This document shows positions 22,395 through 39,535 of a stretch of 64,000 nucleotides of DNA, piece after piece. This DNA is from Sporichthya polymorpha DSM 43042 (lineage in GTDB: Bacteria > Actinomycetota > Actinomycetes > Sporichthyales > Sporichthyaceae): the NCBI RefSeq assembly GCF_000384115.1, contig NZ_KB913029.1:1708907-1772906 (forward strand), in the 5' to 3' direction. Each line of letters starts with the position of its first letter. The stretch's first letter is position 1. The notes beneath the pieces are model-generated. The model made no database searches. It had not been told where the DNA came from and saw only the letters and a list, made by a program, of their open reading frames with translations. A program made the translations under genes and the position numbers.

Positions 22395-22439
22395 CGGTGG
22401 AGCTGAGGGGACTCGAACCCCTGACCCCTTCCATGCCAT
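22395..22439. other. attL: 3' tRNA-Ala repeat, left end of the AICE
   Basis: 45 bases identical to 39491-39535 except for one base (C at 22412, T at 39508). They cover the 3' half of tRNA-Ala from the anticodon loop to the discriminator plus three flanking bases. The rest of the tRNA is not present here. Confidence 0.9.
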
Positions 22440-22537
22440 CTACAGAAAGCAGGGCTCCCGCCTGGAAACACTGCAGCTTACGGTCCGTGCGAACGTCCGC
22501 GGATGTGTGTGGTGGACCGCGGTTGAGCGGCGCGATT

Positions 22538-22558
22538 GTCACTCAGTTCGTCACTCAG
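22538..22558. promoter_or_regulatory. Paired 9-bp repeats inside the left end (possible integrase arm sites)
   Basis: GTCACTCAG at 22538-22546 and 22550-22558, 12 bases start to start, about 100 bases inside attL. The same pair with the same spacing lies inside the right end (39414-39434). Confidence 0.6.
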
Positions 22559-22616
22559 TGAGCCGGCTTCGTCGCGGGTCGACGTGCCTTTCACTGCAGT
22601 GCGAGCGTGTTCGTTC

Positions 22617-23840
22617 TCAGGGCCGGGATCCGGCTGTGACCAGTGCGAATCGCCAGCGATCGCCCTCGCGCCAGACCACGTGCGCGCCCGCGGCTTTCAC
22701 GTCGGCGAGACCTGGCGCGGAACCCAGGTCGACGATTCGGTTGTGTTGTCGAACGAAGATCCACTGGCCGCCTTGGTCGCCCCCATCCCATCCCAGGACG
22801 TCGTGGGTCAGGACGGGATAGGCGAATGAAATATTCGTCCCGGTAATGCGGGTCTCGGATCCGTCCCCGTCGAGCAGGGTGATCGTCGAGCTCTCTTGCG
22901 TTTCGTCTGCCGGCGACAATGATCGCGTAATCCACGCGACGGCTCGGTCTGCGGAACTGAGGCCGGCGAGACGCTCGTTGTCGCCGAGCTCGAGTGTGCG
23001 CAGCGTTTCGTCATGGCCGGTCGCGAGGTCCCGCCGGTGTAGTTGAACTTCGCCGTGCGGGATACGCGGATCCACGAAGCGGGACTTGACGTAGAACATC
23101 GTTTGACCGTCGACAGACAGGTCGCTCGCGTTCGACACTTCCCGCCGGACGGGCTGGCTCCCGGTGAGGTCGCGGGAGTAGATGTGCGCCCGGGCCGGGC
23201 GGTCTTTATCGCCGGTGGACTCGGCGGCTTGCCAGTACACGCGTTCGTTGGCGAGGAACGGAACAGTTCCATTTGGTGCACTGGGGGTCTTGTCGCTGAC
23301 TGCTTTGGCAATCACGCGCGTCTTCCGGGAAGCGAGGTCGTGGGCGAGGATGACCCACCCGTCCGTGTAAAGGTCGGTGCTGGTGGTTTCCATCCACACC
23401 AGCGTTCGCTCGTCGGAGTCTCCCCATACCGCTTGTCGCGGCCGAGCGCCATCGCTACCGGGGATCTTGAGCGAGGCTCCGCCGGGGGTGATGACTTCGA
23501 TCCTGCTTTGGCGCAGTCGGATCTCGCCGCCTTGCACAATGTCGGGCAGCCCGACCTTCGCGAGGACTGAACCCTGGGGTGTCACGCTGAGGATTCCAAC
23601 CCGTACATCGTGTTCGCGGGTTTGCGATAGGGACTCCAGTTCGCGTAAAGGCGCGTCGCCGCTCGCGGGAACCGCGTCGTCGATGCTCAGGTCGAGAGTT
23701 GTGGCGTGTGTTCCCGGCGTCGGAACCGTCGACACGATCGGCGTCGCGGGCGTTGAGGGGTGGGTCGCTCGGGACTGGTCGGAGCCACATGCAGCGCTTC
23801 CGAACATCAAGGCCGCGATCATCCAGATGGGCAGATTCAT
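22617..23840 (-). CDS. Lipoprotein with predicted beta-propeller
   Basis: The 407 residues begin MNLPIWMIAALMFGSAACGS, a lipoprotein signal with Cys18 as the lipidated residue. A Thr/Pro-rich spacer follows, then repeated strands with TolB/WD-like character: GGASLKIPGSDG, ERTLVWMETTSTDLYTDGW, NERVYWQAAES, DLSVDGQTMFYVKSRF, DRAVAWITRS, AGAHVVWREGDRWRF. It is probably attached to the outer face of the membrane. The start is one base after the stop of the broken lipoprotein gene upstream. Family not identified. It is the first gene inside the left end of the AICE. Confidence 0.65.
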   Translation of the reverse strand: MNLPIWMIAALMFGSAACGSDQSRATHPSTPATPIVSTVPTPGTHATTLDLSIDDAVPASGDAPLRELESLSQTREHDVRVGILSVTPQGSVLAKVGLPDIVQGGEIRLRQSRIEVITPGGASLKIPGSDGARPRQAVWGDSDERTLVWMETTSTDLYTDGWVILAHDLASRKTRVIAKAVSDKTPSAPNGTVPFLANERVYWQAAESTGDKDRPARAHIYSRDLTGSQPVRREVSNASDLSVDGQTMFYVKSRFVDPRIPHGEVQLHRRDLATGHDETLRTLELGDNERLAGLSSADRAVAWITRSLSPADETQESSTITLLDGDGSETRITGTNISFAYPVLTHDVLGWDGGDQGGQWIFVRQHNRIVDLGSAPGLADVKAAGAHVVWREGDRWRFALVTAGSRP

Positions 23841-23841
23841 G

Positions 23842-24400
23842 TCAGTGACCGCCGCGCGGCTCGCTGCAGCCGCCTTCGAGGTACACCCCGTGGGGGAGAA
23901 GTCTCACTGAGTCGCCCAATGTTCCGGAGATGCACGGGCCGGCGCCCGCCACGATGAACGAGAAGGCGAGGTCGTTGCCGGTGGCGTACACGCTGGCATT
24001 TGGGTAGCCCAAGTCCGTCAAGGCAGATTTGAGGTCTGCCTCGCTTCCGGGTAGCTCGGCGCCGAATTGGCCCAGTGCGATTCGGACGCGCTCGGCATGC
24101 GCCTCGCCGCGGCAGCGAGCCTGCGGCGTCAAAGGTTCAGTTTGCTTGAATCCGTTGTTCTCCATGTACCTCGACCCCTCCGGATCGGGCGCAAGCACTG
24201 GCGCGCTCGGCTCGGTGGTCCCAGGCGGGGTTCTTTGCAGCGTGCTGCGATTCCAGGGAAGGCCGCGTCGTGCGCTGCGGTCGAGGACCCGGCTGGTGCC
24301 GCGCGGTCGGCGTCGGCCGGTCCGCACGCCGTCAGCGCTAGGACTCCGGCGATGAGAGTGGCGGCCCGCAGACTCGCTGGGCGTGCGCTTTTTAGATCGG
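23842..24400 (-). pseudogene. Small lipoprotein gene with frameshift
   Basis: A lipoprotein signal (SLRAATLIAGVLALTACG) is readable in one frame down to about 24250. The coherent C-terminal domain (MENNGFKQTEPLTPQARCRG, then LGQFGAELPGSEADLKSALTDLGYPNASVYATG and CISGTLGDSVRLL) is in another frame and ends at 23842. A one-base shift near 24245 separates them, and no good start codon precedes the signal. Either a decayed gene or a sequencing error. A shorter protein could start at the internal ATG near 24165. 24401-24625 shows no gene. Confidence 0.5.
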
Positions 24401-38137: not shown

Positions 38138-38143
38138 CGGCGC

Positions 38144-39364
38144 TCAGCATTCGTCCGTGGATTCCGAGGCCATCTCGACATGCCACGCCGCACGCGCGAG
38201 CAGCTCATCGAAAGTGATGACCTCCGGTTCGTAGAGGTTCCGCCGAAAGAGCTCGAAGCTCCGTACCTGGTCAGGCACCGGGCTCCCCGAAGGCCCGGTC
38301 AGCTGACTAAGGCTGCCGACGACGAGGAAGGACCGAGGCCGGACCACGAACGTCCCGGTCGGGAGCATCTCGCCCTGCTCCGAGACGTCGTGAAGATACT
38401 CGCCGATCGAACTGCATGCGAGCTCAACCGTCTGCTGCGCCTGGACTACGCCCCCGGAAAGATCAGCAGACGGCGGCCAGCAACCCGACCGGTAGTCCTG
38501 CGCGAGGAGCTTCGTACGGTGGTGCTTGACCTCCGCGAAAGCGAGAGAGCGGATGATGCCCGCCGTCCGCAGCAGTGCATCTACGCGCTTTCCGACGGAT
38601 GTAATCGACCGCCCTACGACGGTCTGCTCCAGCCTCGCCGCGTCCCAGGCGGTGAATAGCTGCCCGCCGAGGCCGATGCCGAGCACCCACGGATTGTCTT
38701 CCAGGAGCCGCTGCCAAGCCTTTTCCGGACCGCCCGCCGCCGCGGCAGCTTCGTCGAAGGCATCGTCGTCTGACAGCCACTCGCGCATCAAGGCCACGAC
38801 GCCACGGCGTCGCTGGAGCGCGACGACGTCCTCCGCTTCCCCATCAGACTCGATCATCGCCCGGAACCGAGCCCGATCCCGCGAATACAACTGCTCGACG
38901 GCAGCCGGGTCGGCGAGTACCTCACGCAGAAGGTCCTCGTCGACGACGATGCCCTGCTCTCCCTCGACCGGAACGAGATCCACCGCGCGAAGAGTCGAGA
39001 TGAGCCGCGCGGCTTGCGCCCTATCGAGCTCGAGGACGGGCTCAAGCCTCGTCAAGTCGCCCGATGTCGGAGCCTTCTGGATCCGCAGCTTCCGGACGGC
39101 CCCTTCAACGCGAGCAACCTGCAGCTGCAATTGCTTCCGTCCGCCAGGAGTCGTCGATACCACTTCGGTAGTCCAATCCCAGTCGGCCTCGTCCGGAGTG
39201 AGGACCTCGTCAAACACTCGGTAGATGTAGCGCGTGGGGTGGCCCTCGTCCTGACCCCACTGGGCGATGAAGCTCTTCGAGACGTAGATGCGCGAGGGCA
39301 AGCGGCCGTTCGCGTAGTCGACCTCAGTGCTCTCGAACGGGTTCTCGAAGTTGATGACAGGCAT
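38144..39364 (-). CDS. Shedu-type antiphage nuclease (SduA-like, DUF4263)
   Basis: 406 residues from ATG 39364 (GGGGGATA upstream). The N-terminal 200 residues are family-variable. The C-terminal domain is DUF4263: WQRLLEDNPWVLGIGLGGQL, then KRVDALLRTAG (Asp of a PD-(D/E)xK site), LAFAEVKHHRTKLL (Glu-x-Lys) and RSGCWPPSADLSGGVVQAQQ. Shedu proteins are single-gene phage-defence nucleases. Convergent with int (stops 6 bases apart) and within 130 bases of attR, it is a cargo gene at an element end. Defence activity is inferred from the family. Confidence 0.85.
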   Translation of the reverse strand: MPVINFENPFESTEVDYANGRLPSRIYVSKSFIAQWGQDEGHPTRYIYRVFDEVLTPDEADWDWTTEVVSTTPGGRKQLQLQVARVEGAVRKLRIQKAPTSGDLTRLEPVLELDRAQAARLISTLRAVDLVPVEGEQGIVVDEDLLREVLADPAAVEQLYSRDRARFRAMIESDGEAEDVVALQRRRGVVALMREWLSDDDAFDEAAAAAGGPEKAWQRLLEDNPWVLGIGLGGQLFTAWDAARLEQTVVGRSITSVGKRVDALLRTAGIIRSLAFAEVKHHRTKLLAQDYRSGCWPPSADLSGGVVQAQQTVELACSSIGEYLHDVSEQGEMLPTGTFVVRPRSFLVVGSLSQLTGPSGSPVPDQVRSFELFRRNLYEPEVITFDELLARAAWHVEMASESTDEC

Positions 39365-39413
39365 GGCTATCCCCCGTCTGCCGCACGGCCGGCCGTCCGA
39401 CGTCGGGACAATA

Positions 39414-39434
39414 GTCACTCAAATAGTCACTCAG
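39414..39434. promoter_or_regulatory. Paired repeats inside the right end (possible integrase arm sites)
   Basis: GTCACTCA at 39414-39421 and GTCACTCAG at 39426-39434, again 12 bases start to start, about 57 bases inside attR and just upstream of the Shedu-like gene. Confidence 0.6.
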
Positions 39435-39490
39435 GAACCAGAAAGGCCCTCGCCGCCGTGACGCGGGAGGGCCTTTGACCTGCTCGAACG

Positions 39491-39535
39491 CGGTGGAGCT
39501 GAGGGGATTCGAACCCCTGACCCCTTCCATGCCAT
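39491..39535. other. attR: right end of the AICE in tRNA-Ala
   Basis: The second 45-base copy, here part of the complete tRNA gene. Identity with attL ends inside the anticodon loop, so the integration event restores the tRNA 3' half. Confidence 0.9.

Follow-up and report, generated by a model that had tools for sequence, protein, structure and literature searches.

The 3' end of a single tRNA-Ala(GGC) gene of the actinomycete Sporichthya polymorpha DSM 43042 was very probably the target of two successive integrations: an older element entered first and then decayed, and the site is now occupied by a 17.1-kb actinomycete integrative and conjugative element (AICE) at 22395-39535. The analyzed stretch, called the window below, comprises 64,000 nucleotides (NCBI RefSeq assembly GCF_000384115.1, contig NZ_KB913029.1, positions 1,708,907-1,772,906 of the forward strand; GTDB lineage Bacteria; Actinomycetota; Actinomycetes; Sporichthyales; Sporichthyaceae), and all positions are counted in it unless a locus is named. 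Tandem accretion followed by decay had been put forward in an original prediction made from the window. It is supported by the synteny of a sister species, by arm-type repeats at the AICE ends and by the recurrence of a repeat of the older integrase at the tRNA-Ala of that species, and also by a copy of the AICE sigma-factor/cargo segment that keeps the same order. Transfer RNA genes were called with ARAGORN, protein families with Pfam, NCBIfam and PHROGs, and defence systems with PADLOC.

The tRNA-Ala(GGC) gene is complete and is the sole tRNA found in the window. Its 3' part forms two attachment site (att) cores:

39492..39566, minus strand: tRNA-Ala(GGC), integration target, intact (ARAGORN)
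39491..39535, unstranded: AICE att core, tRNA side, 45-bp repeat (repeat comparison)
22395..22439, unstranded: AICE distal att core, which would earlier have served the older element as its tRNA-side att (repeat comparison)

The two cores match at 44 of 45 positions (98%), and a search of both strands of the window with a 44-bp core and up to 16 mismatches returned these two known places and no third one. Thus, the predicted bounds of the 17.1-kb element are confirmed. The element itself is an AICE of the pSAM2/pMR2 type. Besides a site-specific integrase and att repeats, located here at a tRNA 3' end, it carries a replication initiator of one of the three AICE types (RepSA, RepAM or Prim-Pol), namely RepSA, and a single FtsK/SpoIIIE translocase for the transfer of double-stranded DNA. 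Translocase, RepSA, excisionase-like protein and integrase stand in the usual AICE order, and a Shedu gene follows:

33664..35244, plus strand: FtsK/SpoIIIE translocase, TraB-like (PF01580, E 1.1e-11)
35241..36746, plus strand: RepSA replication initiator, start set by eye (PF20199, E 1.2e-84)
36765..36956, plus strand: excisionase-like HTH_17 protein (PF12728, E 2.3e-12)
36956..38137, plus strand: AICE tyrosine integrase, 393 aa (PF00589, E 9.6e-18)
38144..39418, minus strand: Shedu protein SduA, between the AICE integrase and att (SduA_C, E 3e-27; PADLOC SduA, E 8.8e-120)

The NCBIfam plasmid_TraB match of the translocase was weak (26 bits versus a cut-off of 800). In the plasmid collection, the nearest RepSA (51% identity) was the replication initiator of Micromonospora rosaria NC_006910.1 (11,188 bp), which was assigned to pMR2 by its record length and PMC3364876. 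The original prediction had called all core genes intact; this holds for the reading frames, which are open, and for the family matches, from which the genes may also be judged functional.

A sister species from the same genus (G002) shows what the site looks like without the AICE. On the left, four blocks of the window between 3086 and 16194 have matches in G002, and on the right the match runs on from the tRNA with 91-92% identity. Between the flanks, 6.5 kb of different sequence is followed by an att core, a 2.0-kb stretch and the tRNA, with no AICE; the best G002 match to the AICE integrase reaches 27%. Therefore, the 22395-39535 region is not an ordinary part of the chromosome, and an interpretation of 22.4-39.5 kb as simple collinear chromosome, which would have spoken against the prediction, was rejected. 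The variable region begins near 16195, far to the left of the claimed left att. A DNA-level comparison of the left flank matched G002 only briefly at the expected place (window 16137-16194); the boundary was taken from a separate flank comparison.

What remains of the older element is, first of all, a truncated integrase at the distal att core of the AICE:

21458..22393, plus strand: N-terminally truncated integrase of the older element; its frame reads into att (Phage_integrase, E 9.9e-25)
21395..21456, plus strand: ISL3-type end fragment abutting the truncated integrase (84% to L011, where the adjoining open reading frame, ORF, is DDE_Tnp_ISL3)

The open frame of this stub integrase (21458-22561, plus strand) runs rightward into and through att, up to 22561, so that, as in tandem accretion, the integrase end of the older element abuts the distal att of the AICE. 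It had been proposed that the stub reads into att just as the active integrase does; the rightward direction was borne out, but the Shedu gene separates the AICE integrase from its att. The stub is 53-57% identical to seven aligned relatives and lacks about 110 N-terminal residues (judged by eye against the full relative in L009, a locus of the same genome adjoining tRNA-Pro(CGG)).

Further evidence comes from short direct repeats just inside the AICE ends:

22538..22557, plus strand: GTCACTCA-N4-GTCACTCA at the distal end, 98 bp inside the att core (putative arm-type site)
39414..39433, plus strand: GTCACTCA-N4-GTCACTCA at the integrase-side end, 57 bp inside the att core (putative arm-type site)

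The window contains five copies of GTCACTCA on the plus strand and none on the other, four of them forming the two pairs with a 12-bp period. Beyond what chance would give, both 200-bp inner ends share an 8-mer direct repeat of the same spacing: when two 200-bp stretches of the window were drawn at random 20,000 times, no draw shared any such 8-mer repeat. The test was post hoc, the repeat having first been spotted by eye, and close pairs were skipped yet counted among the 20,000. As at pSAM2-type attachment sites, putative arm-type repeats flank the att core on both sides. According to PMC3364876, the att core of pACPL has a 21-nt repeat on either side, which is likened to the integrase-bound arm-type sites of pSAM2; the 20-bp AICE repeats resemble these published sites and might likewise be bound by integrases.

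In 148 genomes, the 20-bp pattern GTCACTCA-N4-GTCACTCA was found at 12 places in seven genomes, while its backward control gave two places in one genome (G086). Near each of the ten places outside the window, a whole or partial tRNA 3' end was recognized by eye, with short fragments only in L091, L100 and L102. An integrase related to that of the AICE lay near three of the ten: in L097 (59%, full length), in L095 (two frames, 64% and 52%) and in L102 (77-84%, seen via the longer locus L087). The remaining places gave no AICE-integrase match at 1e-8 in the pieces searched, own-genome L100 not being among them. The inner ends of the elements in G002, G003 and G004 (the last from the same family) hold no exact same-spaced 8-mer repeat, and the arm evidence there consequently rests on the 17-bp repeat described below (G002) and on single GTCACTCA copies (G004).

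Two of these patterns belong to a further relic in S. polymorpha itself (genome G000). At 3.618-3.621 Mb of contig C1, a decayed integrase related to that of the AICE (77-84%) is accompanied by one of the arm pairs and by 28 bp of the tRNA-Ala att. The second arm pair lies 17.8 kb away, at 3.6005 Mb, together with the att end that remains (G000:C1 3600526-3620837; L104, L087). The genes between the two att-end parts include one for an RHS-repeat protein, and ARAGORN found no tRNA-Ala in L103, L104, L087 or L105.

Which tRNA the stub integrase used is suggested by a repeat of its own:

22307..22323, plus strand: 17-bp double repeat GCTGAC-TTTCT-GCTGAC at a distance of 71 bp from att, a putative arm site for the stub integrase

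In five related genomes, the exact 17-mer occurs at two places, whereas its backward control occurs at none. One place is the stub; the other belongs to the G002 remnant, where it lies 106 bp inside the distal tRNA-Ala att core. This recurrence points to tRNA-Ala(GGC) as the probable site of the stub integrase.

The relatives of the stub integrase are found at various tRNA genes. Among the 79 named relatives scored for tRNA context (the best of 457), 49 lie beside a tRNA gene, which is one for Val in 25 cases, Pro in 12, Asp in 5, Ile in 3, Ala in 3 and Glu in 1. A further 12 point into a tRNA-like fragment that has been displaced, and the other 18 do neither. In the 12 displaced cases, as in the window, the integrase runs into the 3' portion of a tRNA, after which the tRNA sequence ends, and two of these copies share contig and orientation with a second copy located at a whole tRNA-Val(CAC). 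By distances worked out by hand, displaced L179 and tRNA-adjacent L155 of Actinomycetospora sp. TBRC 11914 are ~16.4 kb apart, and displaced L191 and tRNA-adjacent L135 of A. straminea ~12.9 kb. Accretion around stub-type integrases is common.

The variety of tRNAs used by these relatives also fits a different explanation, in which a rearrangement brought the stub beside tRNA-Ala from an element using another tRNA, e.g., tRNA-Thr, tRNA-Pro or tRNA-Val. A tRNA-Thr 3' relic does lie 1.2 kb from the stub att, and there are ISL3 pieces in the region. Yet the similarity between the stub and L009 passes the integrase end and continues into the tRNA part, as in an undisturbed integrase-att junction, and the 17-mer of the stub recurs at a tRNA-Ala in G002; we consider such a rearrangement very improbable.

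The region to the left of the stub is a mosaic with insertion-sequence pieces and a tRNA-Thr att-like relic. From left to right, it consists of a cut MerR-type gene, the sigma/cargo copy, an ISL3 end, an AraC-type regulator, a small ORF, a tRNA-Thr 3' end, a second ISL3 piece and the integrase. The features concerned, together with the AICE genes that the copy resembles, are as follows:

17212..17985, minus strand: MerR/GyrI-like gene, N-terminus cut where the decayed segment begins (MerR_1 from profile position 20 of 69)
17991..19114, minus strand: decayed copy of the AICE sigma-factor/cargo segment at 25339-26465 (sequence comparison)
19117..19275, plus strand: ISL3 left-end fragment (81% over 164 bp to L011; ISL3 transposase)
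21130..21161, unstranded: tRNA-Thr(CGT) 3' end, 32 bp identical, att-like relic (own-genome tRNA comparison)
21264..21289, plus strand: triple ACCGAC repeat that may be the arm site of a tRNA-Thr element, located 102 bp inside the tRNA-Thr relic
24626..25936, minus strand: AICE cargo protein adjoining the sigma factor, without a match in Pfam, PADLOC, NCBIfam or PHROGs
25933..26724, minus strand: AICE sigma-70 family factor, cargo (Sigma70_r2 and r4)

The sigma/cargo copy is frameshifted but remains 94% identical to the AICE segment in the same order (66 mismatches and three single-base gaps in 1129 alignment columns). Cargo, integrase and att thus follow each other in the stub as they do in the AICE, which is the order expected of a collapsed AICE-like element. 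The same copy, whose identity rises to 99% in one 100-column block, might suggest instead that it and the stub integrase are leftovers from the AICE's own past, dating from an exchange of its integrase and a duplication of its cargo. Such a module swap seems quite improbable to us, however: the stub lies outside the AICE att, where a tRNA-side integrase end would sit, G002 has the 17-bp repeat of the stub inside its tRNA-Ala att without the present AICE, and the identity of the copy falls to 83-88% at one end, unlike that of a recent simple duplication.

The two ISL3 end fragments stand in direct orientation and flank the tRNA-Thr relic, whose intact counterpart, tRNA-Thr(CGT), is located ~0.47 Mb away. 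The triple repeat is the only ACCGAC-N4-ACCGAC of the window in either orientation, and 21080-21290 as a whole (a hairpin, the 32-bp tRNA-Thr core and the triple ACCGAC) has a layout like that of an attP or of a tandem junction of a tRNA-Thr element. It is tempting, if rather unlikely, to suppose that at least three integrase systems have left their traces, one upon another, in the outer region, and that the tRNA-Thr relic may represent an AICE circle taken up through recombination at a common insertion sequence and not by its integrase. If true, AICE arrays could grow without site-specific integration.

Several observations weigh against two successive integrations at tRNA-Ala(GGC). The stub and AICE integrases belong to different subfamilies (32% identity over 53 aa); this distance also led us to reject the stub as a same-family tandem copy. 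None of the 79 relatives sits at tRNA-Ala(GGC), the three tRNA-Ala cases being at other tRNA-Ala genes, and a one-mismatch 17-mer occurs in G001 at a locus without an ARAGORN-detected tRNA. The absence from tRNA-Ala(GGC) is weak counter-evidence because this integrase family readily changes its tRNA. Furthermore, the outer element has no distal att of its own in the window, for which we propose a deletion; the 94% cargo copy could have come from the AICE by recombination and not from the older element; and the ISL3 and tRNA-Thr pieces are foreign, so that 17991-22394 need not all be one element. Overall, the prediction that the left integrase is the stub of an earlier same-site element is partly supported: its N-terminus is truncated and its 17-mer recurs at the G002 tRNA-Ala, but the distal att of the older element is gone and the region is mosaic. 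The prediction had also named integrases of families using different tRNAs as evidence that would contradict it; subfamilies do differ and none of the 79 relatives was found at this tRNA, but tRNAs are easily switched and the 17-mer would place the stub at tRNA-Ala.

The two-integration scenario may be depicted as follows. The first to enter tRNA-Ala(GGC) would have been an older AICE-like element that brought a different tyrosine integrase of its own, the gene for which ended beside the tRNA. Later, the pSAM2/pMR2-type AICE (22395-39535) would have integrated at the same tRNA, restoring it and pushing the older element outward, with the result that the older integrase now reads into the distal att of the newcomer. 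Insertion sequences and deletion would then have cost the older element its distal att, the replication/transfer core and the N-terminus of its integrase. Excision of the present AICE, with its integrase acting between 22395 and 39491, should still be possible. Both this order of events and the present mobility are what we infer from the arrangement described.

The tRNA-Ala(GGC) site looks like a hot spot in the family, since remnants are found there in both G002 and G003: a second att core is separated from tRNA-Ala(GGC) by 2.0 kb in the former (L064 14884-16994) and by 0.9 kb in the latter (L066 8815-9797). By eye only, the G002 remnant ends in an integrase-like C-terminus, with no Pfam match. 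In G004, the distal att of an att-flanked 5.5-kb element has an integrase on its left, the same layout as in the window; the tRNA is at the end of another contig and is presumably joined to this element. The 5.5-kb element (L068 3936-9495) has no recognized integrase, and its genes include LuxR-type regulators. Its ends resemble those of the AICE (73% over 158 bp and 81% over 117 bp), with single GTCACTCA copies, and it is possibly mobilized in trans.

Two further AICE genes deserve a comment:

31753..32235, minus strand: NUDIX protein (PF00293, E 6.5e-21; PADLOC PDC-S07, E 1.1e-9)
32326..33120, minus strand: repressor-like regulator (DUF5919, 4.9e-07; PHROG transcriptional repressor, 2.6e-05)

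By its position and family, the NUDIX protein is probably similar to Pif of pSAM2. The gene for the Shedu anti-phage protein, convergent with the integrase gene, occupies a spot between the integrase and the tRNA-side att where cargo would travel with the element; we claim no novelty for Shedu inside an AICE.

Finally, we compared the window with published elements. The AICE shares RepSA, an FtsK-type translocase, an excisionase, an integrase and an att in a tRNA 3' end with pSAM2, pACPL and NC_006910.1, but differs in its tRNA (tRNA-Ala(GGC) versus tRNA-Pro in pACPL; PMC3364876), in its Shedu and sigma-factor cargo and in a RepSA only about half identical to that of NC_006910.1. AICEs with different integrases stacked at one tRNA, including an ancient remnant without traB, have been reported (PMC9513070); that array, like ours, combines different integrases at one tRNA, identical bounding repeats and the remnant of an ancient element, but it concerns another tRNA and lineage, while here one complete element is joined by one collapsed stub. 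Similarly, the tandem AICEs Sav3708 and Sav3728 at tRNA-Arg of S. avermitilis have integrases of two sub-families in one tRNA gene (PMC3218068); both are called AICEs in that paper, whereas the outer element of the window is decayed. AICE stacking with different integrases is therefore already known, and the window is a good new case of it, not a new kind. Its value is that element stacking at a tRNA is well documented here for a genus other than Streptomyces, and that the molecular fingerprints are unusually clear. Our results suggest that short arm-like repeats name the type of integrase that made an att, even after the integrase has been lost or the tRNA changed, and that they may serve as a practical tool for reading past integrations from remnants.

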